From assembly GCF_002874965.1 (NCBI RefSeq), contig NZ_CP025624.1, positions 4,464,001-4,528,000 on the forward strand: a stretch of DNA of 64,000 nt, given 5' to 3'. Made by a program: the position numbers and the translations under genes. Below, piece by piece: positions 15,391-35,216 of the stretch; the first letter of the stretch is position 1; each line of letters starts with the position of its first letter. The notes beneath the pieces were generated by a model, which had not been told where the DNA came from, ran no database searches, and saw nothing but the letters and a program-made list of their open reading frames with translations. This stretch comes from Pseudomonas sp. NC02 (GTDB lineage Bacteria; Pseudomonadota; Gammaproteobacteria; Pseudomonadales; Pseudomonadaceae).

Positions 15391-15415
15391 TTTCACACCT
15401 GTGAAAGCTTGTGAC
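15391..15415 (+). promoter_or_regulatory. Putative regulator site upstream of the first HrpK-like gene
   Basis: TTTCACA-CC-TGTGAAA (15391-15406) is a perfect 7-bp-arm inverted repeat. It overlaps CTGTGAAAGCTTGTGA (15399-15414), a 16-base string found again at 35176-35191 before the second HrpK-like gene. TGTGAAA and TGTGACT recur exactly 10 bases apart. About 80 bases separate it from the start codon. Likely a shared activator site. Confidence 0.6.
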
Positions 15416-15495
15416 TTGTTGCCAACGAACCCGTTTTCACTCGCTTGCAGCCCCTACTATCGAGTCCTCGTGCGCCCCTCACATGGACTGAACCG

Positions 15496-18400
15496 ATGAT
15501 CACCCGCCCCGAAAAATCCGCGTCGCCCCGCGTCGATCAACCCAACGCTCCCGAGCGGGTTTTCGACGCCGTCCTGAACAAAGCCAAAATCCTTGCCAGC
15601 ACCGGGCCGGGCGACAAAACCCTTAAGCCCGAGGACTACAAGGAAGTCACCGCCCTCCCGGCCAAGCTCGACATCGACAAGCTCAAGGTCATTTCCGAAG
15701 ACAAGGACGCCGGGGTGATCTACTTCGAACAGGACGGCGCCAAATACAAGATCAGCGCCGAGGGTGCGGCCAACGCCCAGGACGGCTTCGACGTATTGAA
15801 GAACCTGCGCTTCGGCCATGCCGTAGCCCCGGTCAACCAGGGCGGGCCCGACGAAGGTACCCCGCTGTACACCTTCCTCCAGACCCTGGCCGAAACCCAG
15901 GGCACCCCGGCCGGCAAGGCCATCGTCGAAAGCCTGAAGAACCCCGACCAGCAACTGCTGCGCGAAGACGGCGACGGCGTGCGCCTGGCCAACATCAAAT
16001 CCGTGGGCAAGGCTGAAGACGGCATCCTCAAGGTCAGCCTTGAAAACGGCAAGACTCTGGTCATTTCCGAATTGCTCACGCCCCAGGCGTTCAGCACCTA
16101 CACCCAGGCCGGGGTGACCAAGGAAGCCCTCAATGACGGCAAATCCAAAGGTTATGAAGAAGTCACCAGCCTGCCGGGCGACCTCGATTTCAGCCAGTTG
16201 AAAGTGGTGTCCGAAGACAGCAGCGCCGGAGTGATCCTGTTCGAACACCAGGGCCACAAGTACGCGATCAGCAAGTCCGAAGCCGACCTGCCGCAGCCCG
16301 GCGCCGACCTCAGCAACCCCAACCCCAACGCGGGCGGCACCTTCTACAACTTCCTCCACGCCGTGCACGCCAGCGAAGGCTCGCAGGCCTTCGACTACAT
16401 CAAGAACGCCCAGTCCCTGCCCGGCCAGGAACTGCTGCGCAAGGACGAGGCCAGCCTGAAGCTGGGCGACATCAGCAAGGTCGACGCGCCCATGGACGGC
16501 ATCCTGGTGGTCAACCAGGCCGACGGTAAACTGCTGGTGGTGTCCAAGGACATCACCCCCGAAGCCTTCGCCGCCTACACCAGCAAGGGCCAAACCCTGG
16601 CCGGCATCGAAAAGGCCAAGGGCGACGGCTACACCCTCGCCGCCCCGGACGCTTACCTGGCCTCCACCGAAGACATCATGAGCGTCGGCGGCGCCGGTGA
16701 TTATGGCCCGGGCCTGATCGCCTTCACCCAGCACAAGCCGGGGGGCAGCGAAGAGAAAATCGTGGTGTCGCAAGACAGCAATCCACAGCTGTTCGAGCAG
16801 ATTTCCAGCTACCGCAGCGACATCGCCGCGCAAACCACCGACGTCGACAAGCTGCGCACCGACAACGGCCTGCCGCCCCTCAAGGACGTCTCCGTCGATA
16901 ACCTCACCACCACCGAAAAAGATGAAGGCGGCAACCCGCTGTCGGTGCAGGACCTGTCGATGAAAACCCTGGTGGACAGCTACCGCGCCGGGGTCAAGGA
17001 CGGCAGCATCGGCAAGGACGACCCGCGCGCCAAGTTCCTACGGGCGGTGGAAGCCAGGAGCATGGCCGACAATGGCATGTCGATCATTCCCGAGCACGGC
17101 TTCGGCAACCAGGGCATCGCCACCACGCCCATCGACGTGACCTCGCGGGATGTACGCGACAACATCTTCGACACCAAGGCCATCGACCAGACCATCAACG
17201 ACCTGCTCGGCGACTCGACCATCCAGCACGACATCAAGGCCAACCACGACGCAGCCCTGGGCAAGGTCGACGGCGGCCAGGCGAAGGTCGATGAGACCAG
17301 GCAGCGCCTGATCGACAGCACCTCCTCGGAGAACTTCACCCAGTACATCAAGTCCCTGCAGGACAGCGGCAAGACCGAACTGGCCACCCAGGAAATCCAG
17401 ACCGCCTACACCGCCCTGGCCGATATCGACCCGGCCAAGGCCGACAACTTCCTGCAAAACCTGCAGATCGACGGCTACACCGATGCCGTTGAACAGCTGA
17501 TGGACGATCCCACCAAGATCTCCGACGACAACACCGCCCTGGCCACCACCGACAACACCATGGCAATCCTGTCGATGCTCAAGGGCAGTGCCGACGGCCT
17601 GCCGCGCCAGGCGCTGGGTGTGTATTCGAAGTTCGTCGACCAACTGCTCAAGGACAAAAACGCCGCCGCCGATTTCGGCAAGGCGATGATTTCCCTCGGC
17701 GACACCTGGCAGAAAAACGGCGTGATCAGCTTCAGCGACATCGACAAGGCCGTGAGCAAGGAGATCATGCCGGGCCTCAGCGAAGAGAACCGCAGTTCGT
17801 TCGTGAAGAACCTCAACTTCCTCAAGGACAACGGCGTACTCGGCTCTGTGGGCGGCGCAATCGGCATGGGCCGTATCGTCTACCAACTCGCCGGGCAAGG
17901 CGGCAAGCTGGCGGATACGCCGATGAAGCGCCTGGGCATCGCCAACGACTTCCTCGGCTTCCTCGGCACCGGCTCGCACTTCGCCACGCTGGGCCTGAAG
18001 GTCTACGACAAATTGCGCGGCACCAACGCCTACAAGCTGATGGGCTTCGACCGTTCCCTGCCCGACCTGTGGGCCAAGCCCGGCGAGGGGTACCACGCGC
18101 TGCCCAAGGACGCCGAGGCGGTGCAGAAGAAGTACTTCGAGATCGTCGACCAGGCCATGGACGACGGCAAGGACGTGGGCAAGGCCCTCAACAGCGGCGG
18201 CTGGAGCGACGAAGGTGCGGCGAAGATCCAGGAAGGCATTGAAAAAGGCATCGCCAGCCGCGGCGGCGTGGCCGGGGCCGGGTTTGGCGCGAAGTTCGCC
18301 AGCAGCGCGATCAAGGTGATCGGCATGGCCACCGACGTGGCAGGCGGCGTGATCAGTGTGGTGCAGGCGGCGTTTACCTTGCGTGATGGTGTGCGCGAGA

Positions 18401-18966
18401 AAGACCCGGTGAAAATCGCCTCGGGCTCACTGTCGATGGCCGGTGGTGTCAGCAGCCTGGTGGGCGCGGCCGGCGGCGTGCTGGGCACGCTGGGGGTGAC
18501 CGGGCGGATCATTCCGTTCCTGGGACCGGTGGGTTTCTTGATCTCCGGCGCGTTGTCGTTTGTCGGGGCGATCTTGAGCACGGTGCAGTCCCACAAGCTG
18601 CACAAGATCTCGATGCAGAACTGGGACCAGATCCAGGATTTCAAGCAGGACGGGCTGCTCAAGCCCAACGGAGATGAAGCGTACGTGTGGTTGCAGACGT
18701 ACCTCTCCGACTGGGGCCAGCGGGATGCGCCGCAGGACCAGAGCATTTTTGATTTCCGCAAGGAAGAGTGGGATGCGCGGTCGAGTATCCGCGGGGGCGA
18801 CCATCGGCGGGACCACCCGGACTTTATCGGGGACGGGAATAACCGTAACTCAGAGGACTACAAGTACTCGCTGAAACCGTCGGAATGGACCAATGAGAAC
18901 CACGACATTATCTGGCGGGTGGGGGATGGGTATGGGGGTGAGTACCATGATGTGGACAAGCCATAA
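15496..18966 (+). CDS. HrpK-like giant T3SS-associated protein (1156 aa)
   Basis: Large protein, probably a type III secreted translocator or effector of the HrpK-domain class. Residues 47-205 and 219-363 form a tandem duplication (each opens with an E-V-T-x-L-P segment and contains VISED/VVSED), and a fifth related unit (GPGLIAF..KIVVSQ) lies at 378-436. A long acidic helical middle follows. Three glycine-rich hydrophobic stretches at roughly 930-1040 could insert in membranes. No Sec signal and no cysteine-rich region are seen. It has two counterparts of these elements in the protein at 35604. The start at 15496 is the first ATG but has no clear ribosome site; an upstream in-frame TTG exists at 15445. 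Function is inferred from location and from resemblance to HrpK proteins. Confidence 0.65.
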   Translation: MITRPEKSASPRVDQPNAPERVFDAVLNKAKILASTGPGDKTLKPEDYKEVTALPAKLDIDKLKVISEDKDAGVIYFEQDGAKYKISAEGAANAQDGFDVLKNLRFGHAVAPVNQGGPDEGTPLYTFLQTLAETQGTPAGKAIVESLKNPDQQLLREDGDGVRLANIKSVGKAEDGILKVSLENGKTLVISELLTPQAFSTYTQAGVTKEALNDGKSKGYEEVTSLPGDLDFSQLKVVSEDSSAGVILFEHQGHKYAISKSEADLPQPGADLSNPNPNAGGTFYNFLHAVHASEGSQAFDYIKNAQSLPGQELLRKDEASLKLGDISKVDAPMDGILVVNQADGKLLVVSKDITPEAFAAYTSKGQTLAGIEKAKGDGYTLAAPDAYLASTEDIMSVGGAGDYGPGLIAFTQHKPGGSEEKIVVSQDSNPQLFEQISSYRSDIAAQTTDVDKLRTDNGLPPLKDVSVDNLTTTEKDEGGNPLSVQDLSMKTLVDSYRAGVKDGSIGKDDPRAKFLRAVEARSMADNGMSIIPEHGFGNQGIATTPIDVTSRDVRDNIFDTKAIDQTINDLLGDSTIQHDIKANHDAALGKVDGGQAKVDETRQRLIDSTSSENFTQYIKSLQDSGKTELATQEIQTAYTALADIDPAKADNFLQNLQIDGYTDAVEQLMDDPTKISDDNTALATTDNTMAILSMLKGSADGLPRQALGVYSKFVDQLLKDKNAAADFGKAMISLGDTWQKNGVISFSDIDKAVSKEIMPGLSEENRSSFVKNLNFLKDNGVLGSVGGAIGMGRIVYQLAGQGGKLADTPMKRLGIANDFLGFLGTGSHFATLGLKVYDKLRGTNAYKLMGFDRSLPDLWAKPGEGYHALPKDAEAVQKKYFEIVDQAMDDGKDVGKALNSGGWSDEGAAKIQEGIEKGIASRGGVAGAGFGAKFASSAIKVIGMATDVAGGVISVVQAAFTLRDGVREKDPVKIASGSLSMAGGVSSLVGAAGGVLGTLGVTGRIIPFLGPVGFLISGALSFVGAILSTVQSHKLHKISMQNWDQIQDFKQDGLLKPNGDEAYVWLQTYLSDWGQRDAPQDQSIFDFRKEEWDARSSIRGGDHRRDHPDFIGDGNNRNSEDYKYSLKPSEWTNENHDIIWRVGDGYGGEYHDVDKP

Positions 18967-19050: not shown

Positions 19051-20097
19051 TCAGATCAACCGCGCCGCCACCAACCAGTCCGCCACCGCCTGGAACGAAG
19101 CATCCGGCACCGGATCCCCCGGCACCGTCTTGCGCGCAATCGCTTCCGCCAAGCCCTTGTCCGGCGCTTGCGGTATCCCTAAATCAAACGCCTCCTGCAA
19201 CATCCCCAACGCGTCCTCCGGCGAAGCGCGGCACACCACCACCGGCACCGGCGTTTCACCACGCACATAACGCACGCCTATCACCCAGCCATCGGTGGTG
19301 CCGATCATCATCGACGCCCGGCCCAACCCCAGCTTGGTGGCCAGCGCCTGCATCTCCTGGCGCTGGCGTCGCCGTTCGCTCTTGATCAACGGGTCGCCGT
19401 CAATGTCCTTGCGCTCGCGCTTGGTCTCGCTGCGGGTCATTTTCATGTCGCGGCCGAACAGCCAGCGTTGCATCAACACATCCACCCCGCCCACCAGGAT
19501 GAAGGCCGCGAGTACGGTAAACACCAGCGGCTTGAGCACCAGGAAAAACGTCGACTCGATACACCCCGCGCCACACCGCGACGACTCCATCAACGCCTGC
19601 AACGCATGCCGCCCCACCACGTAGAACGCCACGGCCAACACATGCACCTTGATCAGGCCCTTGATGAACTCCACAAAGTTGCGCAGGGCAAACAGCTTCT
19701 TGAAGCCTTCCGCCGGGTTGATACGCTTGAACTCCGGCTTGATCGGCTCCACGGAAAACACAAAGCCACGCATGGTGATGATATTGGTCAGGATCACCAC
19801 CCCGGTGGTCACCGCCATCACCGGCAGGGTAATGCCGATCACCAGTTGCTCGGCATGGTCCAGCACCCGTGGCCAAACCGTGGCGAAGGGTTCGATGTAG
19901 ATCTGCGCAGTCAGGTCGATCAGCGCCGTGACCTGGGCCTGGGCCCGGGGCGCGAGGATGGAAATGCACAGGGTGCAGAACAGGATGACCATGCCCGAGA
20001 CCAGGTCCTGGCTCTTGGCGACCTGGCCTTTCTTTCGCGCGTCCTTGAGTTTTTTATCCGTGGCCGGCTGGGACTTCTCTTCGCTGGTATCGCCCAT
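19051..20097 (-). CDS. sctU: SctU, T3SS export-gate switch protein lacking NPTH
   Basis: Inner-membrane protein of 348 residues: basic N-terminus (KKLKDARKKGQVAKSQDL, typical of FlhB/YscU), four hydrophobic helices between about 30 and 215, and the cytoplasmic domain with D-G-D-P-L-I-K-S. Where other members have NPTH, which self-cleaves to switch substrates, this protein has T267-T-D-G270 (bases 19288-19299). The flanks still align residue for residue (RxS.. before, RYxRGETP after). It should therefore be uncleaved. Last gene of the minus-strand apparatus operon, three bases after sctT. Confidence 0.9.
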   Translation of the reverse strand: MGDTSEEKSQPATDKKLKDARKKGQVAKSQDLVSGMVILFCTLCISILAPRAQAQVTALIDLTAQIYIEPFATVWPRVLDHAEQLVIGITLPVMAVTTGVVILTNIITMRGFVFSVEPIKPEFKRINPAEGFKKLFALRNFVEFIKGLIKVHVLAVAFYVVGRHALQALMESSRCGAGCIESTFFLVLKPLVFTVLAAFILVGGVDVLMQRWLFGRDMKMTRSETKRERKDIDGDPLIKSERRRQRQEMQALATKLGLGRASMMIGTTDGWVIGVRYVRGETPVPVVVCRASPEDALGMLQEAFDLGIPQAPDKGLAEAIARKTVPGDPVPDASFQAVADWLVAARLI

Positions 20098-20100
20098 GCG

Positions 20101-20913
20101 CTACTCCATGCCCGCCAGGGTTTTCAGCAGCTCCACGGTGCCGCGAAATTCCGCCAACTGGTCCAGCATCAACGGAATCAGGAAGCCGATGTAGATCACC
20201 ATCAGGATCGAGAAAAACAGGTTTTTCACCGGCAACGACAGGTCGAAAATATGCAGGTTCGGCGCCATCCGCGACAGGTACGCCAGCATCAAATCAGTGA
20301 CCAGCAGCGAGATGATCAGCGGCGACACCATCAGCACCCCGACGCGCATGATCTGGTCGAGAATCGACAACACCGCCAGCAACGCCGAGCTGGCAAATAC
20401 CGGTGTAAACGCGGTCACCGGCCACAGCTGGTAGCTGTGGTAATAACCGTCGACCATCAGGATAAAACCGCCGGACATGAAGAACAGCGTGATCAACATC
20501 ACCGTCAGCAAGGTGGACATCACACTCGACTCCCCGGTGGACAACGGGTCCACCAGTTGCGCCATGGTCGAACCGCGCTGCAGGTCGATCAACTCCCCCG
20601 CCACTTCCGCCGCCCAGAACGGAATGCCGAACAACAGGCCGATCAGGATACCGATCAGGAATTCCTTGATCAGCAACCCGGCGATAAACAGGCTGCCGTG
20701 GTTGGGCATCGAGGTCATGGCGTCGAACACCGGCATGAACATCGGGATCGAAATCGCCACGGCCACGCAGCCGCGAATCATTCCGGTGAGCCCGAGGCGG
20801 TTGAACGCCGGGGTGATCACCACCACGCCCATGGCCCGGCAGGCCGCCAGCGAGGCCGAGCTGATCACCGGGTAGGCGACTTCGAGAAACTGTGCGGTAA
20901 GGCTGGCATCCAT
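20101..20913 (-). CDS. sctT: SctT, T3SS export gate protein
   Basis: Polytopic inner-membrane protein of 270 residues of the FliR/YscT/HrcT family, with about six to seven hydrophobic segments. The segment A-A-E-V-A-G-E-L-I-D-L-Q-R-G in the first half is typical of the family. With SctR and SctS it forms the export gate. The gene lies between sctS and sctU in the standard R-S-T-U order. Confidence 0.92.
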   Translation of the reverse strand: MDASLTAQFLEVAYPVISSASLAACRAMGVVVITPAFNRLGLTGMIRGCVAVAISIPMFMPVFDAMTSMPNHGSLFIAGLLIKEFLIGILIGLLFGIPFWAAEVAGELIDLQRGSTMAQLVDPLSTGESSVMSTLLTVMLITLFFMSGGFILMVDGYYHSYQLWPVTAFTPVFASSALLAVLSILDQIMRVGVLMVSPLIISLLVTDLMLAYLSRMAPNLHIFDLSLPVKNLFFSILMVIYIGFLIPLMLDQLAEFRGTVELLKTLAGME

Positions 20914-20919
20914 GGGCGG

Positions 20920-21189
20920 TCAGCGCGTCCACAAGGGAAAATTGTCCAGCACCTGGCTGCCGAGTTCCGCCACTTGCCCGGCCAGCACCGGGCCGAGAAA
21001 CACGATAGTCAACAATACCGCCACCAGCTTCACCACCTGGGGCAGGGTCTGGTCCTGGATCTGGGTCAGCGCCTGGAACAGGCCCACGCTCAAACCCACG
21101 ATGATCGCCACCCCCAGCGCAGGCGCGGAGAGCATCAGCACGGTCATCAGTGCCTGTTTCATCAATGACAGGAAAACGTCCTGGCCCAT
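20920..21189 (-). CDS. sctS: SctS, T3SS export gate protein
   Basis: Small inner-membrane protein of 89 residues with two hydrophobic helices and the family loop F-Q-A-L-T-Q-I-Q-D-Q-T-L between them. Homologue of FliQ/YscS/HrcS, an export-gate subunit wrapped around SctR. Six bases separate it from sctT and ten from sctR. Confidence 0.95.
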   Translation of the reverse strand: MGQDVFLSLMKQALMTVLMLSAPALGVAIIVGLSVGLFQALTQIQDQTLPQVVKLVAVLLTIVFLGPVLAGQVAELGSQVLDNFPLWTR

Positions 21190-21199
21190 GGGTCGTGCC

Positions 21200-21853
21200 T
21201 CAGCCGTAACTCAGAATCAAACCGTGCATCAGGCGCGACCAGCCGCTCAATGACACGAACAGGAAGATTTTCAGCGGGATCGAAATCAGGTTCGGCGAGA
21301 CCATCGACATGCCCATCGCCATCAGCACGTTGGACACCAGCAAGTCCACCACCAGGAACGGGATGTACAACAGGAACCCGATCTCGAAGGCCCGGGTCAG
21401 CTCCGAACTGACAAACGCCGGGATCAGCACCACGAGGTCGTCATCCCGCAGGTCGGCACGGGCTTCCGGCGACCAGATGGTCTCGGTGGCCTGCACAAAA
21501 AAGCCGCGCTCGGACTCGTTGGCAAACCGTGCCAGGTGCGCCTGTAGCGGCGGGCGCAGGGCGTCGCCGAGGTCCTTGAGTTGCTCGACGTGCTCGATAT
21601 TCAGGTCGCGGCCCTCTACCTGGCGGTACATGTCGCCAATCAACGGCGTGGTGACGTACACCGAGAGAATCAGCGCGATGCCGTACAGCACCAGGTTCGG
21701 CGGCGTCTGCTGCACGCCCAGGGCGTTGCGGATCAGGAACAGCACCACCGAGATTTTCATGAAGCCGGTGAGGGTCACCACCGCCAACGGGATCAACCCG
21801 ATGGTGGCAACCACCAGGATGATCTCGATCAGGTTCGGCTGATAACCGGTCAT
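21200..21853 (-). CDS. sctR: SctR, T3SS export gate protein
   Basis: Inner-membrane protein of 217 residues. The conserved core T-G-F-M-K-I-S-V-V-L-F-L-I-R-N-A-L-G-V-Q and P-N-L-V-L-Y-G near the N-terminus, and the P-F-L-V-V-D-L-x4-L-M-A-M-G-M motif near the C-terminus, place it in the FliP/YscR/HrcR family. No extra Sec signal like that of FliP is present. Its ATG overlaps the sctQ stop (ATGA). Confidence 0.95.
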   Translation of the reverse strand: MTGYQPNLIEIILVVATIGLIPLAVVTLTGFMKISVVLFLIRNALGVQQTPPNLVLYGIALILSVYVTTPLIGDMYRQVEGRDLNIEHVEQLKDLGDALRPPLQAHLARFANESERGFFVQATETIWSPEARADLRDDDLVVLIPAFVSSELTRAFEIGFLLYIPFLVVDLLVSNVLMAMGMSMVSPNLISIPLKIFLFVSLSGWSRLMHGLILSYG

Positions 21854-22851
21854 GGGGTGGCGAAACTCAGCAGGCGCACGCCCAGGCCGTCACCGATTTT
21901 CACCAGTTGGCCCTGGCCGACGCGACGGCCGTTGACCATCAGGTCGACGCCATCCACGGTCGGCGTATTCAGTTGCAGCAGGCTGCCCGCCCCCAGTTCC
22001 CGCAGTTGCGCCAGGGTCAGTTCCAGGCTGCCGACCTGGCACACCAGCTTGAGGGGCAAATCGTCCAGGGCCGCGGCGGCATCGACGTCAGTCATTGTGT
22101 TCTCCATGTCCAAAAGGGGCGTGTTCAGAGGTTCCTGCACCTGCAGCGACGAGCCGTCGCGCTGGCAGCGGGCTTGCAGGCGGCCCTCAAGGTCCAGCAG
22201 CCAGCCGCTGCCGGGTTCGAGCATCAGCACATCGCCGGGCTGCAGGCTGCGCAGCTCGCCGAGGCTCAACCATTGCCGCCCGGCCACTACCGACAGCGTG
22301 TGGCGCAACGCCGGCAACGGGTCGGCGTCGATCTGGCCGTGCTGCTCCAGCAACTGGCCCACCAGCACTGCAGCGCTTTCACTCAAGTCCAGTTGGGCGG
22401 CCATTGGTGGGTTGTTGCCGAAGGTCAATGTCAGTGCCAGATGCACTGCATAAGGCCGCAGGTCGTCACTGGTTTCGAGCAGTTGCACGGGGTGGCCGAG
22501 CAACGGTTCGAGGCGCTCGATCAGGTCCAGCACGGCCAGTTCCAGCAGCAGCGAACGCGGTAATGCCGGCAGCACTTGCGCGTCGAACTGCAACGCCAGC
22601 GGCACCAGTACTTGTTCCAGGGCGGCAGCCGAGAGTCGCAAGCGCACCGGTGACTGGCCGAGCAACAGCAACACATCCCGGGGTGTTTTCAGCGGCTGGG
22701 GATCGGCGGCCCAGGCGACGCTCAGATCCTGCCCGGCGCAGCGGCCCTGCCACGCATGCCGCCGGCGGTGCAATTGGTTATGCAGCGTGAGCAGCGCCGG
22801 GTCGTAGTGCTCAAGCCAGGGCGCCAACGGGTCGGCAAGGGCCACGATCAT
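21850..22851 (-). CDS. sctQ: SctQ, T3SS cytoplasmic ring (SpoA) protein
   Basis: Soluble sorting-platform protein of 333 residues. The C-terminal 75 residues form a SpoA domain (LKLVCQVGSLELTLAQL, then a D-L-x-V-N-G-R-x-V-G-x-G-Q-L-V motif). A second, weaker SpoA-like part precedes it. Unlike the split HrcQA/HrcQB of the P. syringae Hrp1 system it is a single gene, which agrees with a rhizobial-type apparatus. Overlaps sctO and sctR by four bases each. Confidence 0.85.
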   Translation of the reverse strand: MIVALADPLAPWLEHYDPALLTLHNQLHRRRHAWQGRCAGQDLSVAWAADPQPLKTPRDVLLLLGQSPVRLRLSAAALEQVLVPLALQFDAQVLPALPRSLLLELAVLDLIERLEPLLGHPVQLLETSDDLRPYAVHLALTLTFGNNPPMAAQLDLSESAAVLVGQLLEQHGQIDADPLPALRHTLSVVAGRQWLSLGELRSLQPGDVLMLEPGSGWLLDLEGRLQARCQRDGSSLQVQEPLNTPLLDMENTMTDVDAAAALDDLPLKLVCQVGSLELTLAQLRELGAGSLLQLNTPTVDGVDLMVNGRRVGQGQLVKIGDGLGVRLLSFATP

Positions 22852-23297
22852 GTGCCGAGTCCTTGTTCTTCACGCAGCTCGCCGGCCACCCGTTCGCTGC
22901 TTTCACGCCCGTCCAGCAGGCTTTGCCAGGCATCGGACTGGCGCTGGCGGCTCAGGCGCTCCTGACGGAACAGGTCGCGCTCACGCTCCTGGGTTTGCAG
23001 GGTACTGGACACGTGGCTGACGTCGCCTTCAAGCACCTGCTCATCGTCGGCCAAGCCACGCAGGCGATCCTGGGCGGCCTGCCAACTGGCCACCGACAGG
23101 CCTTCGGTCAGCGAGGCGTAAATCTCGCCGGCTTCATGAGCAACGGCCTCACGGTGCAGGCGCAGTTGTTCCTTGGCGTCGGTCAAGGCGCCGTGGGTTT
23201 GCGCGCAGCGTTGCTGTTGCGCCGCCAACTGGCTCGCCGCCCGCTGTTCGCGCAGCACCCGCAGGGTTTGCAGGGTGCGCAGTTGTTCAGTCTTCAT
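22848..23297 (-). CDS. sctO: SctO-like T3SS stalk/coiled-coil protein
   Basis: Protein of 149 residues, almost wholly predicted alpha-helical coiled coil rich in Q, R, E and L. This is the composition of the YscO/HrpO/FliJ stalk that couples the ATPase to the export gate. Sequence in this family is poorly conserved, so the call rests on size, coiled-coil character and position between sctN and sctQ. No separate SctP (needle-length ruler) gene is found next to it. Confidence 0.75.
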   Translation of the reverse strand: MKTEQLRTLQTLRVLREQRAASQLAAQQQRCAQTHGALTDAKEQLRLHREAVAHEAGEIYASLTEGLSVASWQAAQDRLRGLADDEQVLEGDVSHVSSTLQTQERERDLFRQERLSRQRQSDAWQSLLDGRESSERVAGELREEQGLGT

Positions 23298-23355
23298 CGG
23301 TTCTTTTCTCCATCGTCATACCAACAGCGCACTCACTGAGTGCATGAAGATCGAA

Positions 23356-27464: not shown

Positions 27465-27489
27465 GCTCCTTTACTGGGGTTGGGGTGAA

Positions 27490-28056
27490 TCAAGGGGTTT
27501 CGGTGCTCACCTGGGCGCCGCGAAACACCCGCACGCCGTGCTCGCGCGCCACCACCGGCGCGGCGGCCTTGGGCTGCAGGTGATCCACATGCTGCTGGAC
27601 CAGCGCCAGGTACGGCGGCGGCCCGGAGACGAAGACTTCATCGCCCTCGGGGCCGTTACGCATCGATAACTGCTGGCCGAACACATCGAGGTTGTTCAGA
27701 TAGGCCTGCAACTGATCCAGGTTCAGGGCGTTGGCCTTGAACAGCCGGGTGGTGATTTCATCGCTGGCATTGAGGTACAGCAGGTTGCCGTCGAAATACC
27801 AGGTCAGGCCATTGGTGCTGCACAGCGTCTGCAAAAACTCCCCGGCGGTGGCTGCACGCACGGTGCTGCGGGCCTTGCCGCGGACCTTGTCGGAGAGCAC
27901 CAGCGGGATATCGAGGTTGTGGCCGAACTCTTCGAGGGCGGCGCGCACGTCCTGGTCCACCAGCACATAGGCGTAGGGTTTGGCGAACCATTCGGGTTCT
28001 TCGTCGGCGTGGGCGATCGAGGCACCCAACAGCACCGACAGACATAGGAGCGCCAT
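27490..28056 (-). CDS. sctC1: SctC1, N-terminal half of a split T3SS secretin (NolW/RhcC1 type)
   Basis: Periplasmic protein of 188 residues: signal peptide ending near AHADEEPEW, then an N0 domain (V-L-V-D-Q-D-V-R-A-A-L-E-E-F-G, L-V-L-S-D-K-V-R-G-K) and an N1-like domain, and no secretin beta-barrel. In rhizobia the secretin is split into RhcC1 (NolW) and RhcC2; this is the RhcC1 counterpart. The frame continues far upstream (to 29346) through repeat DNA, which I do not regard as coding. The ATG at 28056 lacks a good ribosome site. A divergently transcribed TPR gene separates it from sctC2, so it begins its own transcript. Confidence 0.8.
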   Translation of the reverse strand: MALLCLSVLLGASIAHADEEPEWFAKPYAYVLVDQDVRAALEEFGHNLDIPLVLSDKVRGKARSTVRAATAGEFLQTLCSTNGLTWYFDGNLLYLNASDEITTRLFKANALNLDQLQAYLNNLDVFGQQLSMRNGPEGDEVFVSGPPPYLALVQQHVDHLQPKAAAPVVAREHGVRVFRGAQVSTETP

Positions 28057-28104
28057 GGAAAATATGCTTACATGACGTCCGCCTTCGCCCAACGAGTTGT
28101 GACG

Positions 28105-28869
28105 ATGACCAAACACTTTTTGCTTGCCGGCAGCCTGTTGCTGGCTGCCTGTTCCAATACTGCGCCGAGCGATTCCGACCGCTCGCTGAAGCTGGCCGAC
28201 GACCTGAACAAACGCGGCGACTACGCCAGCGCGGCGGCGCTGTACGAACGTGCGGCCCAGCAACCGGGCGCAAGCATCGACTTGTGGCTCAAACTCGGCC
28301 AGGCACGGCTCGACGGCAACGACGCGGTCGGTGCCGAGCGCGCCTTCCAACAGGCCCTCGGCCTTCAAGCCCACAACGCCGACGCCCTGCTGGGACTGGG
28401 CACCGCGCAACTGCGCCTTGGCAAAAGCCAACGCGCCGTGACCGCCCTGGGCCAGGCCGCCGAGGCCAGCCAGTCGCCGGTCGCCTACACCCGACTGGGC
28501 ATTGCCCAGGTGTTGAACGGCCAGGCGGTCGCGGCACAAACCGCGTTCGCCAAAAGCCTGGGCCTGCAACCCGACGACCTCGACAGCCGCTGCAACCTGG
28601 CCCTGGCCTACGCCCTTGGCGGCCAGGCGCAGCAGGCCTTGGACACCATCGCCCCCGTCACCCAATCGCCCCGCGCGTTGCCACGGCATCAGCGTAATGA
28701 GTTGTTGGTGCTGGTGTTGGCGGGTTACGAACAACGGGTGGCCAGCTTGCCGCTGGACGATATACCGGCGGCTGAGCGCGCACGCCTGATCACGGAAGCC
28801 AACCGCATCAAAGCCATCAGCAATCCGATTGCGCAAGCGCGGGAATTGGGGCTGGTGGATACGCACTAA
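28105..28869 (+). CDS. TadD-like TPR lipoprotein
   Basis: Lipoprotein of 254 residues: MTKHFLLAGSLLLAAC gives a lipobox at C16 (LLAAC), followed by five or so tetratricopeptide repeats between about 28 and 190. Resembles TadD, the TPR lipoprotein acting with the Tad-pilus secretin as a pilotin/assembly factor. It is the only plus-strand gene inside the apparatus cluster and lies between the two secretin halves. An ATG at 28072 in frame is an alternative start but would bury the signal peptide. Confidence 0.75.
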   Translation: MTKHFLLAGSLLLAACSNTAPSDSDRSLKLADDLNKRGDYASAAALYERAAQQPGASIDLWLKLGQARLDGNDAVGAERAFQQALGLQAHNADALLGLGTAQLRLGKSQRAVTALGQAAEASQSPVAYTRLGIAQVLNGQAVAAQTAFAKSLGLQPDDLDSRCNLALAYALGGQAQQALDTIAPVTQSPRALPRHQRNELLVLVLAGYEQRVASLPLDDIPAAERARLITEANRIKAISNPIAQARELGLVDTH

Positions 28870-28872
28870 ATC

Positions 28873-29187
28873 CAACTGCTTTTGATCTTGCTGTTGCCCT
28901 GCTTTTGACGTTGCTTTTGATCTATCAGGCCCCGTTAAACCACGCTGGCCGAACGCAGGCTTTGGAGCGTGGGTAACCCGGCAGGACGCCGGGTTAGCCG
29001 CGCTGGGCCAGGGATGGCCCATCGCGGCGGCCCACGCTCCAAAGCCGGAGTGAGGGCACACCGAGCCTGAGCGAGGTGCCGAGTGGTGGGGCAAAGACCT
29101 TTTGGTTACTTTTGGGGCGTTTGCCAAAAGTGACCCGCTGTAAGAGCGGAACCCTAAGTGGCCGTTACCGCAGGAATGGATATGTAC
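28873..29187 (+). repeat. Long intergenic repeat, copy A
   Basis: Starts with several CTTTTGATCT-like units, then a GCCCCGTTAAACCACGCTGG block, a long palindromic centre around 28960-29035 (AACCCGGCAGGACGCCGGGTT nested in larger arms) and the tail TAAGAGCGGAAC..GGATATGTAC. The same element occurs inverted at 39364-39656 and, with the palindromic centre deleted, at 39829-40086. The 473-base gap between the TPR gene and the CpaD-like gene holds only this and the REP pair after it. Confidence 0.85.
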
Positions 29188-29223
29188 GCGGTAAGCTTCA
29201 AGATCCGGGTCGCCTATCAGTCC

Positions 29224-29322
29224 GCTTTCGCGAGCAAGCCCGCTCCCACATTTGGATGGTGGTGTGGCAGATGGATCTGCTGGGCCTGGAATACCGCTAT
29301 CGCAGGCAAGCCAGCTCCCACA
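29224..29322. repeat. Two REP sequences in the same orientation
   Basis: GCGAGCAAGCCCGCTCCCACA (about 29231-29250) and GCAGGCAAGCCAGCTCCCACA (about 29302-29321) are variants of the same REP type placed head to tail rather than as an inverted REPIN. Confidence 0.75.
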
Positions 29323-29342
29323 GAGGACATGTGAACGCAGGT

Positions 29343-29723
29343 TCATTGCTCCGCTCCCGGAGCGCCCGCCTTGGCCTCTTGCTGAGCCTGACGCCGCTGC
29401 AACTGCTCCCGATCAAACCCCTCGATATACACCTGCGCCGCCCGCCCAACCGGCGCCGCCATCGCTGGCCCGGTGGCCCGCCCCTGATTCAAATCCTGGC
29501 GCTGCTCCACCATCTGCATCAAATTCAGATTATTGGCGCAGCCTAACGGCAAGGTCGCCTTGAAATCCTCGTCCAGTCCAATCTCGTCCTTGGCCGGCGG
29601 CTGCTGGCACTGGCTTGGCACCCCGTCCGCCTGATACTGCGGCGAGTAATACACCGGCGCCAGATGCGTCTTGCAGCCCACCACCAACAGGGGCAAACAC
29701 ATCAACAAACGCGAAACTTTCAT
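29343..29723 (-). CDS. CpaD-like lipoprotein of the T3SS secretin module
   Basis: Protein of 126 residues with a lipobox LVVGC near residue 17. The stretch L-G-C-A-N-N-L-N-L-M-Q-M-V, then D-L-N-Q-G-R and a R-A-A-Q-V-Y-I-E-G closing motif match the C-terminal signature of CpaD, the lipoprotein partner of the Tad-pilus secretin CpaC. It is shorter than CpaD (about 210) and lacks its N-terminal part. The start at 29723 has an AGGGGG ribosome site; an ATG at 29738 overlapping the sctC2 stop is an alternative. Directly follows sctC2. Confidence 0.75.
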   Translation of the reverse strand: MKVSRLLMCLPLLVVGCKTHLAPVYYSPQYQADGVPSQCQQPPAKDEIGLDEDFKATLPLGCANNLNLMQMVEQRQDLNQGRATGPAMAAPVGRAAQVYIEGFDREQLQRRQAQQEAKAGAPGAEQ

Positions 29724-29737
29724 GCCATGCCCCCTCA

Positions 29738-31018
29738 TCAATTCATGTAGAAACCAAACGCCCCACCACTGCGCGGCCCCGCCGCTGCGGCGGTCGCAGG
29801 CTGCGCATCCAGCGGCGTGGCCAGGGTGCGACTGCGCACCGGCTCCACCAGGTACGGCGTAATCAAAATCACCAATTCGGTTTCATTGCGCTGAAAACGC
29901 TTGGAGCGAAACAGGTTGCCCAGGATCGGCAAGTCCCCCAGCAACGGCAGCTTCTCGATGTCCTGGCTGCTCTCACGCTGGAACAAACCGGCAATCGCAA
30001 ACGTCTGCCCGCTGCCCACTTCCACCCGCGTATCGGCGCGGCGCACACTGAACGACGGCACATGGAAATTGCCGAAATCCACCGTGCCGCCACTCACCAC
30101 ACTGCTGACCTCAGGGCGCACTTGCAGGGCGATCCGGCCGTTGGGCAGCAGCGTCGGGTTGAACAACAGCGACACGCCGAACGACTTGTATTCGATCCCC
30201 ACCAGGTCCCGATTCACCGGCACCGGGATCGCCACTTCGCCGCCCGCCAGGAAGCTCGCGGTTTGCCCGGTCATGGCGGTGATGTTCGGCTCGGCCAGGA
30301 TTTGCAGGATCCCGTTGGCCTGCAACGCGTCGAGCATGCCGTCGATATTGGTATTGCCCGAACCGCTGCCCGCTGCCGCCAGGCCACCGGCGGTGGCGGC
30401 GGCCAGCGGTCCGCCGGTGATCAGGCCAAAGGAGAACGTGCCGTTGCTGAACATGGCGTTCCAGTTAACCCCGTAATGCAGCAGTTCCGAGCGGGACACT
30501 TCAGCAAAGCGCACACGCAAGTTGACCTGGGCGGCACCGGCGTACTCAGTGGTGTTGACCGCGCTCTGGAAGCCCTGGCCCTGTGGGTTGAGCAAGGCAT
30601 TCAAATCCGTCGCTTCTCCAACCGAACGCACCGTGCCCTTGGCGATCAATCGGTTACCGGCACCGCTGATCTGCGCGCCATTGCCGGGATGCAATTCCTG
30701 CATCGGCGCGGTCACTGCCTGGGTCGCGCTGCTGACCGCCAGGCTCAGGCTGGCAAGCTGTTTGCCGTCGCTGCCGAGGGCAATCAGGCTGGTATTGCCC
30801 GGCGCCTTGCCGAAGATATAGATCACCCCGGGCGACACCACTTGCAGGTCGGCAATCCCCGGCTCGGCCACCAGTACCGACTCCACCGGGGCCACAAAAT
30901 GCAGGATCCGGCCTTCACCGGAGGCCAGGTTGATAGACCCCTGGGCACCGTTGGCGATGTCCTGGGCACTGCAGAAAAACGAGGTCAACGTCAGCAACAG
31001 CAGACAAAAACGGATCAT
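29738..31018 (-). CDS. sctC2: SctC2, T3SS secretin of the CpaC/RcpA (Tad) type
   Basis: Outer-membrane secretin of 426 residues. Signal peptide ends near FCSAQ; residues about 28-90 form the CpaC-type N-terminal domain (V-A-E-P-G-I-A-D-L-Q-V-V-S-P, then I-F-G-K-A-P-G-N-T). The secretin domain spans about 165-400, with the V-P-V motif, A-G-L-F-Q-R-E, the L-P-L-L-G-D-L-P-I-L-G-N-L-F-R-S signature and L-V-I-L-I-T-P-Y. It completes the split secretin begun by sctC1. Its ATG overlaps the sctV stop. In rhizobial systems the same role is taken by RhcC2. Confidence 0.85.
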   Translation of the reverse strand: MIRFCLLLLTLTSFFCSAQDIANGAQGSINLASGEGRILHFVAPVESVLVAEPGIADLQVVSPGVIYIFGKAPGNTSLIALGSDGKQLASLSLAVSSATQAVTAPMQELHPGNGAQISGAGNRLIAKGTVRSVGEATDLNALLNPQGQGFQSAVNTTEYAGAAQVNLRVRFAEVSRSELLHYGVNWNAMFSNGTFSFGLITGGPLAAATAGGLAAAGSGSGNTNIDGMLDALQANGILQILAEPNITAMTGQTASFLAGGEVAIPVPVNRDLVGIEYKSFGVSLLFNPTLLPNGRIALQVRPEVSSVVSGGTVDFGNFHVPSFSVRRADTRVEVGSGQTFAIAGLFQRESSQDIEKLPLLGDLPILGNLFRSKRFQRNETELVILITPYLVEPVRSRTLATPLDAQPATAAAAGPRSGGAFGFYMN

Positions 31019-33153
31019 GAGGCAGACGCCAGGGAAGTGACGGAAGCCGCGGCAGGTGCACGGCGGTTGGAGATATCGGTAAGGCTGATGGTCACCAGCG
31101 CTTGCAGGTTGTATTCGGTGGCCAGTTCGCGAAACGACAACACCGCCAGCTCCAGTTCACCGCGCAGCACCAGGCGCCGCAGGCTGCGGCGCAGTTCCGG
31201 GTGCACCAGCAATACCGCACTGTTGGCTTCAGTGGTTTTGTCGCAGGCCTGGCGCAGTTGGGCGAGCAACGCGCGGTTGACTTCCTCGGGGATCACTTCA
31301 CGGCTGGGCTCCTGGCGACGCAGGGACGCACGCAACTGGTCTTCCAATCCCGGCGCCAGCACCAGGGCGCCAATCACCCGATTGCGGTCGGCGTACTGAT
31401 GGCTGATCTGCCGCGCCAACCCTGCACGCAGGTGTTCGGCCAGGCGGCCGGCATCGGTTTCCCGGGCGCCCCACTCCACCATGGCTTCGAGCAAGGCCCG
31501 CTGATTGCGGATCGACACGCCCTCTCCCACCAGCAGGCGCAGGGTCTCGGCCACCCGCTGCAACGGCACCAGGCGCAGGGCTTCCTTGACCAGTTCGCCG
31601 TAGGTGGCTTCGGTGCGTTCGAGCAGCAGGCGGGTTTCCTGGATGCCGAGGAAGTCCGCGGCATAGCGGCGCAGGCTGCGTTCCAGCACGCCACGCAGGA
31701 CTTCGTCCGGCAGCAGGAAACCGATGCCGGCGTTGCGCAGTGCGTCTTCGTGCTGACGCTCGATCCAGTGCGCGGCACGGCCGTTGAGGGGCGAATCGGC
31801 TTGCAGGGTGGCGATGTCCAGCAACTGCACATGCACTGGATCGTCCTGCAACAGCAGGCAGTTGATCGGCATCTCGCCTTCGCTGACGGGTACGCCTTCC
31901 AGTGACACGCGGTAGCTGCCCGGCGTGGCCTTGGCGTCCATGTGAATGCCCGGCACCGGCATATCGACGCCGAGGTCGCTGCGAATGTCGTGACACAGCG
32001 CTTCGATGCGTTGGCTCAGTAGTTGGCGCGGGGCGCTGAGGGCCAACGCACTGCCGAGGGTCAGCAATACCCGAGTGTCGGGGGCCACGCCATAATCCTG
32101 CTCGGCCTGCACTTCAACCACCGGTTCCAGGGTCTCGACCAGCGCTTCAGGCTCTACCTGGTTTTCACGGGTATGACGGCGGTACATCACGAAGGCCGCA
32201 CCACCGAACACCAGCGACAACCCGAGGAACACCCAGGTCGGAAAGCCCGGTATCACGCTGACGCCGACCATGATCAGTGCGGTCAAACCGAGGGCGCGGT
32301 AGCTGGCACCCAACTGCTTGAGAATCTCGCTGCCGAGGTCACCCGCTTCGCCGTCGCTGTTGACCCGCGTGACCACGGTGCCCGCCGCTACCGAGATAAG
32401 CAGCGCCGGGATCTGTGCGATCAAACCGTCGCCCACGGTCAGCAGCGAATAGGTGTGCACCGCCGCGCCGAAGGCCATGTCGCGCTCGATCATGCCGATC
32501 AGCATGCCGCCCAGCAGGTTGACCGCGAGGATCACCAACCCGGCAATCGCATCGCCCTTGACGAACTTCATCGCCCCGTCCATCGCGCCGAACATCTGGC
32601 TCTCGCGCTCCAGGCGGGAGCGCCGGCGGCGGGCTTCGGCCTGGTCGATATCGCCGTTGCGCAGGTCGTTGTCGATGCTCATCTGTTTGCCGGGCATCGC
32701 ATCCAGGGTGAAGCGCGCCGCCACTTCCGCGACCCGCTCGGCGCCCTTGGTGATCACCACGAACTGCGCCACGGTGATGATCAGGAATACCACCATGCCC
32801 ACCACCACCTGGCCGGCAATCACGAAGTCACCGAAGGCCTTGACGATATGGCCAGCGTCGCCGTGCAGCAGAATCAAGCGGGTGGTGGTGATCGAAAGCG
32901 ACAGGCGAAACAGGGTGCTGAGCAGGATCAGCGGCGGCAGCGCGGAGAATTCCACCGAGTGGCCGATGTAGAACGCCACGATCAGGATCAGGATGCTCAG
33001 GGCGATGTTCAAGCCGATCAGCATGTCCACCAGGTAGGTAGGCAGCGGGATGATCATCATCACGATCGCCATCAGCATGAACGCGACGATGATCACGTCG
33101 GTACGCTGGGCGGCCATGCGCGCGATGCCGTTCAGGCGATTGAGCAGGTTCAT
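31015..33153 (-). CDS. sctV: SctV, major T3SS export gate protein
   Basis: Inner-membrane protein of 712 residues (FlhA/YscV/HrcV family): about eight helices in the first 330 residues, including the conserved F-R-L-S-L-S-I-T-T-T-R motif and the G-D-A-I-A-G FHIPEP-like region, then a large cytoplasmic ring domain. The frame is open to 33225, but ATG at 33153 overlaps the preceding stop (ATGA). It forms the nonameric ring that receives chaperone-substrate complexes. Confidence 0.95.
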   Translation of the reverse strand: MNLLNRLNGIARMAAQRTDVIIVAFMLMAIVMMIIPLPTYLVDMLIGLNIALSILILIVAFYIGHSVEFSALPPLILLSTLFRLSLSITTTRLILLHGDAGHIVKAFGDFVIAGQVVVGMVVFLIITVAQFVVITKGAERVAEVAARFTLDAMPGKQMSIDNDLRNGDIDQAEARRRRSRLERESQMFGAMDGAMKFVKGDAIAGLVILAVNLLGGMLIGMIERDMAFGAAVHTYSLLTVGDGLIAQIPALLISVAAGTVVTRVNSDGEAGDLGSEILKQLGASYRALGLTALIMVGVSVIPGFPTWVFLGLSLVFGGAAFVMYRRHTRENQVEPEALVETLEPVVEVQAEQDYGVAPDTRVLLTLGSALALSAPRQLLSQRIEALCHDIRSDLGVDMPVPGIHMDAKATPGSYRVSLEGVPVSEGEMPINCLLLQDDPVHVQLLDIATLQADSPLNGRAAHWIERQHEDALRNAGIGFLLPDEVLRGVLERSLRRYAADFLGIQETRLLLERTEATYGELVKEALRLVPLQRVAETLRLLVGEGVSIRNQRALLEAMVEWGARETDAGRLAEHLRAGLARQISHQYADRNRVIGALVLAPGLEDQLRASLRRQEPSREVIPEEVNRALLAQLRQACDKTTEANSAVLLVHPELRRSLRRLVLRGELELAVLSFRELATEYNLQALVTISLTDISNRRAPAAASVTSLASAS

Positions 33154-33485
33154 GGCGCGGCTCTCCGTGCAGCGAGGTAGCGTTTGAAGCACTGGCGCGC
33201 TTCGTCCTTGCGTTCGCCGTACCACAGCGCCCGGGCACGCAGCAGCAACAGGCTGGCAGACTCACCCTCCAGCGCGACCAGCCGATCCAGGGCCGCGAGT
33301 GCGCGGGTGAAGTCGCCGCTGTCGGTGAACGCCAGCACCAGCGAGCGCAGCAGCAGGCCATCGTCGGGCGCGACACTCACGGCAATCAGCAACATCACCA
33401 GCGCGCGCTGGGACTGGCCGTTGCGCCGGTACAGCTCGCCAATGCCCTTGAGCAATTGCACCGCGTCGTCGTTGTCCCGGGGCAT
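33150..33485 (-). CDS. sctY: SctY-like TPR chaperone
   Basis: Small protein of 111 residues made of about three tetratricopeptide repeats (L-K-G-I-G-E-L-Y-R-R-N-G, then D-S-G-D-F-T-R-A-L-A-A-L-D). Its size, TPR fold and position between an SctX-like gene and sctV reproduce the yscX-yscY-yscV order of Yersinia. In Ysc systems SctY binds SctX and both are needed for early export. Overlaps both neighbours. Confidence 0.7.
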   Translation of the reverse strand: MPRDNDDAVQLLKGIGELYRRNGQSQRALVMLLIAVSVAPDDGLLLRSLVLAFTDSGDFTRALAALDRLVALEGESASLLLLRARALWYGERKDEARQCFKRYLAARRAAP

Positions 33486-33841
33486 CAGGCCTGGACCTCC
33501 GAGCGTTGTTGTTCGAGGGTGCGGCGCATCTCGATTTCCTCGCTGATCAGGTCATGGGCCAGCGCCTTGATCTGCGGCTCGGCGTCGAGGTTCGGCAACA
33601 GGTGCTGCATCACGTGTTCCAGCAGTTCCAGGGAACGTGCGCTGCCGAACAGCAGCGAGTCGACGCCAGCGGCGCTGGTGAGTTCTTCCAGGTCACTGCG
33701 CAGGGAGCGGCGGGACTGGACCTTGCGGGTTTTCAGCAACGCTTCGAAAGCCGTGGCCTGACGCGAGTTGACCGGGCGGATCGCCTCGACCGGCGCGCTG
33801 CGCACGTCACTGGGAATCAACGGACGGGGTTCGACTTTCAT
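33485..33841 (-). CDS. SctX-like small T3SS protein
   Basis: Protein of 118 residues located immediately before the TPR chaperone gene and sctV (one-base overlap of stop and start). N-terminal third appears unstructured (P-R-P-L-I-P-S-D-V-R-S-A-P), the rest helical with L-E-E-L-T-S, L-E-L-L-E-H-V-M-Q-H-L-L-P and an E-E-I-E-M-R-R-T-L-E-Q-Q-R tail. Order and size suggest SctX, the exported partner of SctY, but I see no convincing YscX sequence motif. Confidence 0.5.
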   Translation of the reverse strand: MKVEPRPLIPSDVRSAPVEAIRPVNSRQATAFEALLKTRKVQSRRSLRSDLEELTSAAGVDSLLFGSARSLELLEHVMQHLLPNLDAEPQIKALAHDLISEEIEMRRTLEQQRSEVQA

Positions 33842-33869
33842 CCCGGGGCCTTAGCTGAAAAAAGCAGCG

Positions 33870-34763
33870 TCATAGGGTGAAGGTGAAGCGTTCTTCGCCA
33901 CGGGCGAGGATCACCTGGTTGTTCTCGATGCGCTCCAGTACCCAGTTGTCCGCCAGGGCCGCGCCGGGGTACAGGCGCTTGCCGCTGTCATTGATCACGT
34001 AGGGGTTGGCGCCGAACCACACGGCTTGAAAGCGCACCCGTGGCCGGGCTGCATCTGCACGCACGGCGACCCGCGGGTTGAGCACGATCTGCTGGCCGTA
34101 ACGCTGGTCGAAGGCTTGTTGCAGGGCGACCCATTGAGGCTTTTGCGCGCGCTCAAAGGAGCCGACGGCGTTGAGTTGGCCATCGATGTCGTTGACCTTC
34201 ACGGCGTCCAGGTGGGCGGCCTGCAATTGCCCTTCGAACCAGGCCTTGGCCTCGGCACGGGAAGGCTTGGCTGCGGTTGTTTCGGCAACCGGCATTACGG
34301 TTTGCGCTTGCGGTGGATCGTTGCGAAATGCCAGGGCGCCAGCGCACACAAAGAGCAACGCGGTGGCGATGATCCAGGGCGTTAACGTGCGTGTCGTCGC
34401 AGGCGTTTTTTCAGGGCTGCCCGGCAGCGCCAGGCTCACACCCGCCGTGCCGATACGCAGTTGCAGCGGCAGCCGCGCGCGATGGCCGCTGCCTTGGGGA
34501 ATACGGATATCGCCGGCAGTGCCGGTGATCAGTACATCGCCGCCGAGGGCCTCGACGGCCACCTGGGCCCCTTCAAAACGCAGGCGCAGGTGCAACTCGG
34601 CAATCCCGGGATCGCTGAGCTGGAGGTCGGCCGCCAGGGCGGCGCCAAGGGTGTAGACCGGCTGGTCGAGCATCAGGGAACTGCCCTGGTGCAAACCGTG
34701 GGTCACAAGCAGGGTCGGCGCGCCGTTCGCGGCGGGCAGGCCCAGGGAAATCAAGGCTGTCAT
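33870..34763 (-). CDS. sctD: SctD, T3SS inner-membrane ring protein
   Basis: Protein of 297 residues: a cytoplasmic FHA-like domain (about 1-110, with G-S-S-L-M-L-D-x-P-V-Y-T-L-G-A), one membrane helix at about 130-146, and a short periplasmic part. Compared with YscD (about 420) the periplasmic region is short. The start at 34763 has an AAGGGGG site; a TTG at 34799 is possible but less likely. First large gene of the sctD-X-Y-V-C2 transcript. Confidence 0.8.
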   Translation of the reverse strand: MTALISLGLPAANGAPTLLVTHGLHQGSSLMLDQPVYTLGAALAADLQLSDPGIAELHLRLRFEGAQVAVEALGGDVLITGTAGDIRIPQGSGHRARLPLQLRIGTAGVSLALPGSPEKTPATTRTLTPWIIATALLFVCAGALAFRNDPPQAQTVMPVAETTAAKPSRAEAKAWFEGQLQAAHLDAVKVNDIDGQLNAVGSFERAQKPQWVALQQAFDQRYGQQIVLNPRVAVRADAARPRVRFQAVWFGANPYVINDSGKRLYPGAALADNWVLERIENNQVILARGEERFTFTL

Positions 34764-34878
34764 GGTTGGGTTTGCCCCCTTGAGAATCACAGGCCGCAAC
34801 GACGCCTGTGCCGATCAACAACGGTGCAACGGGGTAAGGCAGGTATACGGGCAGCGCCGGCGCTGCCCGCATGGCGAA

Positions 34879-35040
34879 TCAGTTCTGCGGACGCTGTTTG
34901 GTGGCGTCGAGCTCTGCTTTTTTCGCGGTGCTGATCTCGGTGATCTTGGCCGACTTCTCGATGGCCATGTTGAAAGTTGCTTCCATCTTCGCGATAGCGT
35001 CGTCGGCGCCGCCTGCACTTACTGGTGGAGTAGTAGCCAT
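34879..35040 (-). CDS. Candidate T3SS needle/pilus subunit (SctF)
   Basis: Protein of 53 residues starting MATTPPVSAGGADD at 35040 behind a strong AAGGAGA ribosome site, as expected for an abundant subunit. The rest is an amphipathic helix (M-E-A-T-F-N-M-A-I-E-K-S-A-K-I) with a polar tail ending Q-R-P-Q-N. Needle and Hrp-pilin proteins are this small, helical and highly expressed, and often lie first in an apparatus operon, as here. It is shorter than YscF/PrgI (about 80), so the call is tentative. Confidence 0.5.
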   Translation of the reverse strand: MATTPPVSAGGADDAIAKMEATFNMAIEKSAKITEISTAKKAELDATKQRPQN

Positions 35041-35175
35041 GTTCAATCTCCTTGCATCGATAGGGAAGTTAAGCCGCATGCAAACCGAAACAAACTCCCA
35101 GCGTCAGACAGTGAGTTGGCCATGCAGCCATCGGTTTGCATGGGAACCATACTACTCACGAACAAAACGCCTTCG

Positions 35176-35216
35176 CTGTGAAAGCTTGTGAAACGTTCAT
35201 GGCAGGTGCTGTGAAA
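35176..35216 (+). promoter_or_regulatory. Phased TGTGAAA repeat array
   Basis: TGTGAAA at 35177-35183, 35187-35193 and 35210-35216: the first two are 10 bases apart (one helical turn), the third 23 bases further. The stretch 35176-35191 is identical to 15399-15414 upstream of the other HrpK-like gene. Phased direct repeats are the usual binding pattern of OmpR/PhoB-type winged-helix proteins, one of which is encoded at 38895. Confidence 0.6.

Follow-up and report, generated by a model that had tools for sequence, protein, structure and literature searches.

How is the type III secretion system (T3SS) encoded in a 64,000-nucleotide stretch of Pseudomonas sp. NC02 (contig NZ_CP025624.1, positions 4,464,001 to 4,528,000; hereafter the window) turned on? 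The locus combines the core Sct genes with a HrpK homologue, as expected of an Rhc-type T3SS-2, and its Pfam matches include PF23893 (Y4YQ_C) and PF16937. For the T3SS-2 of P. syringae, the accessible part of the original report (Gazi et al., 2012; PMC3574062) mentions no hrp boxes and leaves regulation open, its candidate regulator not being tested there and the conditions of use being unclear. An initial annotation of the window had drawn attention to a 16-mer, CTGTGAAAGCTTGTGA, present on the forward strand at 15399-15414 and 35176-35191, as a shared, phased T3SS promoter element ahead of two HrpK-like genes, read by an OmpR-type protein encoded at 38895. We observe that the string belongs to a box that is conserved in sequence, spacing, orientation and co-inheritance with a regulator; judged from these comparisons the motif counts as a genuine T3SS-2 promoter box shared across a whole lineage, and it is probably the formerly missing on-switch of this secretion system. 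We consider it very likely that the repeat is the binding box of a dedicated T3SS-2 activator, with a long winged-helix regulator as its main reader and the short 38895 relative probably reading the same box.

The evidence that carries this reading comes in the first place from the promoter of the needle-like gene. Box B and its -10-like hexamer (Table 1) define the element TTTCACA-N3-TTTCACA-N22-TAnTAT, the spacing of which is unchanged in 26 of the 28 needle promoters examined; all 26 have the exact box, with 39 base pairs (bp) from the start of the site to the start of TAnTAT, and the remaining two, in G164 and G355 (= L214), carry TTTAACA units at an identical period and spacing. The exact composite of box and -10 element was recovered from 27 of 398 Pseudomonas genomes, one copy in each, with no control hits, and all 27 lie inside the 39 genomes with a T3SS-2 secretin, as defined by a secretin match at an expectation value (E) <= 1e-80. 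The promoter is moreover inherited together with a regulator. We scored nine candidates per genome, the regulator counts here and below being among the matches listed, and obtained matches, mostly to generic relatives, in 256 of the 398 genomes. At E <= 1e-29 the T3SS-type regulator is present in 35 of the 39 secretin-bearing genomes, and each of these 35 has the needle promoter, 27 in the exact form and 8 as variants that show either one mismatch (G056, G241) or TTTAACA (G001, G357, G381, G393, G164, G355). In the four T3SS-2 genomes without the regulator (G035, G043, G309, G388) the promoter is absent, the best matches having 7-9 mismatches; SctC of G388 is interrupted by a stop codon.

The same pattern is seen in a wider set of 59 named loci, collected by an SctC-alignment search from Pseudomonas, Stutzerimonas, Salinicola, Falsirhodobacter and one unclassified gammaproteobacterium, with the closest loci (99%) belonging to P. 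yamanorum and Pseudomonas sp. ATCC PTA-122608. The composite is present in 44 of these and absent in 15 (L207, L212, L222, L224, L225, L227-L236); for L227 a listed chance repeat was left out of this count, and L222 has, by eye, a near form with a spacer one base shorter. Among 21 of the 59 records the composite occurs in 12 of 12 with the regulator (E <= 1e-29) and in none of the 8 without a close one, the last record being intermediate in both respects. The named and genus sets share some genomes. As a separate observation, three T3SS-2 loci without regulator and box, L207, L212 and L280, have in common another sequence upstream of the needle gene, around GTTGAACTGTAATGTT, which is perhaps a replaced control element.

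A second geometry characterizes the box on the HrpK side. All 10 aligned promoters of 15496-type genes keep box A nearly unaltered, including the added inverted unit, and at up to three mismatches the box is found at a single place in the NC02 genome. The HrpK-side boxes, as we call box A together with the second boxes found in P. syringae-type loci, read TGTGAAA-N3-TGTGA(AA) toward the HrpK side. We compiled 26 of them, namely the 10 promoters of 15496-type genes and 16 boxes picked by pattern from the named loci, and found TAnnnT 54-56 bp on in every one (54 bp in 12, 55 in 13, 56 in 1); its background rate at offsets 20-45 of the same 26 sequences is 0.4%. The box side carries a HrpK-like gene in 7 of the 7 loci checked. 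G321 yielded no 15496-type gene but still has, on the other strand, a sequence resembling box A with one change (L121:5746). Plasmid records searched with the box A region gave no match.

These geometries bear on which genes the two copies serve. The copy at 15399 does stand before a HrpK-like gene, 81 bp from the ATG at 15496, as proposed; the copy at 35176 is 412 bp from the 35604 gene and 136 bp upstream of the minus-strand needle gene. The latter is better assigned to the needle/T3SS operon on the minus strand, since its position is retained in 7 genomes without a match to the 35604 product in the fetched stretches and its fixed-spacing -10 box lies on the needle side. Hence, one of the two target genes of the initial annotation is to be replaced by the needle operon. 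A third unit at 35210 retains TGTGAA in 17 near-clade genomes and is not at that place in G037 and G044; as a HrpK-type promoter of the 35604 gene it was rejected, no TAnnnT being visible by eye about 55 bp downstream.

The repeat itself was verified as described: the 16-mer is identical at both sites, with units in a 10-base period (TGTGAAA at 15400 and TGTGA at 15410; TGTGAAA at 35177 and 35187) and flanking units TTTCACA at 15391 and TGTGAAA at 35210, such that 15391, 15400, 35177, 35187 and 35210 are all five copies of the heptamer on either strand of the window. Many exact hits at random places, for which a genome-wide check had been proposed, were not seen: in the whole 6.89-Mb genome the 16-mer matches exactly only at its two sites in the window, as does TGTGAAANNNTGTGA, which at up to one mismatch has 9 matches in all (2 exact and 7 others) against 7 for its reversed control. 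At up to three mismatches the 15-mer gives 72 matches in the genome against 93 for the reversed control; it is thus not enriched, and no wider regulon is visible in NC02. Repetition of a 16-mer was rejected as evidence on its own because such repeats are common in the window, which holds 32 runs (some being real repeats), whereas 30 first-order Markov resamples averaged 3.1 and never exceeded 8; position and conservation are what raise this pair above chance. Across the genus the 15-mer TGTGAAAGCTTGTGA has 25 hits in 20 of the 398 genomes and no control hits. In 19 of these 20 it belongs to a T3SS locus, with the box ahead of the needle gene, and the twentieth, G362, lacks a T3SS-2 secretin and has its two copies inside a repetitive reading frame. 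We set aside the identity of the box across the 19 as evidence, these genomes having been chosen by the 15-mer itself; the fair count for box conservation is the 17 genomes chosen by the short regulator, all of which fall within the 19.

As for the reader of the box, both the short 38895 protein and the long regulator contain the OmpR-type winged helix PF00486 (Trans_reg_C), with 50.9 and 44.4 bits, respectively, at a cut-off of 26.2, and neither has the receiver domain of two-component regulators. In the short protein PF00486 is the only recognised domain, with no sensor or other domain detected, and its DNA-binding domain is under purifying selection: the ratio of nonsynonymous to synonymous rates (Ka/Ks) is 0.03-0.20 in 11 pairs over 102 codons, drawn from 15 of the 17 genomes. 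A search of solved structures with it returned 5ju7 (CadC) as the best match, followed by OmpR and PhoB entries. The NC02 long regulator joins PF00486 (residues 57-131) to PF13401 (183-283), i.e., a winged helix to a STAND/AAA ATPase with a further C-terminal part; the frames of such proteins span 637-1009 amino acids (aa) in the genus set and 516-955 aa among the named-set matches at E <= 2.3e-26. In many genomes other than NC02 the long regulator gene is near the T3SS cluster. The recognition helix VEECNLR[AT]QI is common to the short and most long T3SS regulators compared, the few exceptions including VAECNLRAQI (L254, L255) and a final V or M in some, as against VEDTNLRVHV in the generic relative L252. 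Because this helix is common to the short and long forms, the 38895 protein may still bind the box. The long regulator genes of G241 and of TTTAACA-clade genomes also have weaker boxes upstream (L149:3778 and 10426, L141:1399, L143:1930, L145:7025), which suggests autoregulation there.

The short and long forms differ in distribution. A short regulator accompanies 17 of the 35 needle promoters; of the other 18 genomes, 16 have no clear short form among the matches listed, and G037 and G044 have distant short relatives (181-183-aa frame, 55-56%) on another contig. Of the 35, G056 alone lacks a listed long form, its sole match being cut by a contig end; the long form of G206 is likewise cut, and all 17 genomes with the short form have the long one too, one of them cut in the same way. 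Thus, the class of reader that had been proposed, an OmpR-type regulator, is probably right, while the particular protein, 38895, is not the family-wide partner.

Together, these observations allow a mechanism to be sketched, with numbering from the presumed -10 box. Two winged-helix domains of a HilA-like regulator would bind head to tail on the units phased at 10 bp. At the needle promoter the box would occupy about -51 to -35, replace a weak -35 element and act by direct recruitment of RNA polymerase; at the HrpK-side promoters, reversed and at about -67 to -51, it would allow activation from 1.5 helical turns further upstream. The long regulator, with its winged helix, STAND/AAA ATPase and C-terminal part, would be the main reader and sense a signal, and the short 38895 protein, a domain-only relative kept by selection, probably reads the same box and adjusts the response. 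Only tentatively do we go further and conceive of a two-regulator switch, in which a sensing activator and a sensor-free version of its DNA-binding domain compete for a single box or use it jointly, the short copy acting as floor or brake. In this picture the same box, in opposite orientations and 1.5 turns apart, would serve both the needle and the translocator promoters as well as, in one clade, an unlinked thaumatin-like gene.

Several points weigh against the dedicated-activator reading. The orientation of the box is opposite at the needle and HrpK-side promoters, which is unusual for a single activator, and the reading does not account for the promoter of the 35604 gene. In NC02 the long regulator gene (C1:2461407) lies some 2 Mb away from the T3SS, with no box of position weight matrix score >=11 in the 20 kb around it; the window's own genome offers no further targets, relaxed searches being at control level. 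No covariation of the recognition helix with the change from TTTCACA to TTTAACA was found, the helix being unchanged in the TTTAACA clade. The numbers too have weak points: the regulator cut-off was chosen once the gap between 7.8e-30 and 9.6e-27 had been seen, the pattern that picked the 16 HrpK-side boxes of named loci took matches lying over 250 bp away from the needle gene and left non-matching loci uncounted, and the genomes are related, such that the counts are not independent events. Finally, the reading of the box is derived from sequence, binding and activation being predicted.

Could the 38895 protein alone be the cognate activator, with the boxes serving the two HrpK-like genes? Its winged helix, its position adjoining the T3SS, the purifying selection on its DNA-binding domain and the presence of the box in 17 of 17 genomes with such a short regulator all speak for it. 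However, a protein of this type is found in less than half of the promoter-bearing genomes, always along with the long form, and in the fetched stretches the box stays at the needle gene in the seven genomes without a match to the 35604 product, making this alternative unlikely. Still less probable is a box belonging to another, unlinked regulator of the Vfr/CRP or GntR type that happens to control the T3SS: although TGTGA resembles the CRP half-site and a GntR-type gene (14658-15389) ends directly ahead of box A, the units are arranged as direct repeats rather than as TGTGA-N6-TCACA, no GntR match turns up within the 4.9 kb ahead of box A in G059, the exact composite is confined to T3SS-2 genomes among the 398, and the box is missing wherever the T3SS regulator is missing. 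That the string is a shared DNA repeat or a chance match without function we regard as a negligible prospect; the abundance of repeated 16-mers in the window, the two exact copies in the repetitive frame of G362 and the control-level relaxed patterns would fit it, but the conservation already contradicts it, as do the fixed -10 spacing and the co-inheritance with the regulator. Two other interpretations of the element were rejected. TTTCACA does not suit a sigma-factor -35 element, in that the 22 bp to the -10 box exceed the usual spacing of 16-18 and the HrpK-side geometry differs, and an RNA element is incompatible with a box upstream of the -10 box.

Comparison with known systems helps to place the dedicated activator. 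Enteric T3SSs are driven by HilA/EilA, which have an OmpR-type winged helix, and the best NCBIfam match of the short protein is the corresponding NF009037 (2.9e-11), covering only the DNA-binding part; the regulators are not members of that family, scoring 42.5 (the short protein) and 50.5 bits against a cut-off of 589, and the long one differs in carrying the STAND/AAA ATPase. PhoB, OmpR and CadC, of the same winged-helix family, occupy repeats spaced by about one helical turn in head-to-tail fashion; unlike them, the short protein lacks a receiver or other recognised domain. The box resembles the hrp box of Hrc-Hrp1 systems in being a promoter element common to T3SS genes, HrpL differing in being a sigma factor. 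The initial annotation saw neither an HrpL box nor a tts box, and our counts agree: hrp boxes at up to two mismatches number 18 and 23, about what chance would give (22.2 and 21.5, respectively), and a 20-base part of the published tts pattern has no matches at up to three mismatches. The rhizobial TtsI/tts box likewise couples a box in T3SS promoters to a dedicated regulator, whose binding is predicted in our case, and differs in box sequence (consensus from excerpts of PMC3009519 and PMC5748692). The nearest relative is the P. syringae T3SS-2, of the same lineage by gene content, with SctC identities of 73 and 75% for the two loci that bear the name P. syringae. The accessible part of the report on it describes PSPPH_2539 as a protein with a PhoB-like domain, an AAA ATPase and TPR (Gazi et al., 2012; PMC3574062); the long regulator has the same plan of N-terminal PhoB-like domain, AAA ATPase and long C-terminal part. 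That part of the report contains no binding box, unlike the present case with its box, two promoter geometries and a domain-only second regulator, and the portions of the literature searched yielded no description of this box.

A defined box with fixed geometry provides start sites to map, DNA for binding tests and a pattern for finding co-regulated genes. In 378 genomes of the family a relaxed pattern gave 24 hits in 21 genomes against one control hit; 21 are needle promoters (14 checked, 7 known earlier) and three, L300-L302 (~1500-2480), are box-type promoters ahead of an unlinked gene in three genomes of the TTTAACA clade. This first yield of the pattern encodes a product of 295 aa in L301 and 299 aa in L302, with thaumatin-like matches of 25.3 and 30.1 bits at a cut-off of 27.4. 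It is a candidate regulon member, as predicted from its promoter, and its product a candidate secreted protein.

Table 1. Coordinates of the promoter elements and genes discussed, numbered from the first letter of the window
Feature	Coordinates	Strand	Basis or remark
Box A, TTTCACA-CC-TGTGAAA-GCT-TGTGA, one inverted and two direct units	15391..15414	+	conservation
-10-like TACTAT of the 15496 promoter, 55 bp past the direct-repeat start	15455..15460	+	TAnnnT spacing
1156-aa protein gene	15496..18966	+	HrpK-like by one segment
T3SS core genes in one direction: SctD, SctV, SctC, SctJ, SctL, SctN, SctO, SctQ, SctR, SctT, SctU and small genes	19051..34799	-	Pfam; SctO under its cut-off
Needle-like gene, 53 aa, first gene downstream of the box B promoter	34879..35040	-	ATG at 35040
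-10-like TAGTAT of the needle promoter, 22 bp past box B	35149..35154	-	conserved spacing
Box B, TTTCACA-AGC-TTTCACA read toward the needle gene, two units with 10-bp period	35177..35193	-	conservation across genomes
Third TGTGAAA unit, 33 bp from the first	35210..35216	+	near-clade conservation
HrpK1/HrpF-type translocator gene	35604..38822	+	PF16937, 160 bits
Short regulator, OmpR-type winged helix	38895..39347	+	PF00486, 50.9 bits

Among the genes of the locus, the needle-like gene has full-length matches of 77-100% identity at the same place in the fetched loci; its product has no NCBIfam match and would be the needle protein by its size and position. The two HrpK-like products are unequal in that only the 35604 product matches HrpK/HrpF (PF16937). 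The 15496 product has no Pfam match, and its sole HrpK likeness is a segment of ~90-100 aa that is ~30% identical to the 35604 product. As to the split secretin of Rhc-type systems, SctC is a 426-aa protein with secretin and pil_N domains, and the N0-like match in 27490-29346 is weak and below its cut-off (26.3 bits against 27). Repeated DNA of 32-291 bp, 73-100% identical, lies in and around open frames near the T3SS (28900-29254, 39353-40099, 42763-42857, 52984-53064). A strongly conserved noncoding block at about 35420-35510, in which no known promoter type was recognised, precedes the 35604 gene, or the short regulator where the 35604 gene is missing. Lastly, a palindrome, TTAGTGCA-CT-TGCACTAA, lies at 35551-35568, and 35 bp separate it from the 35604 gene that follows. 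Of the 8 near-clade sequences compared, 7 have a perfect copy and G197 an altered one; the palindrome is possibly the operator of another regulator.

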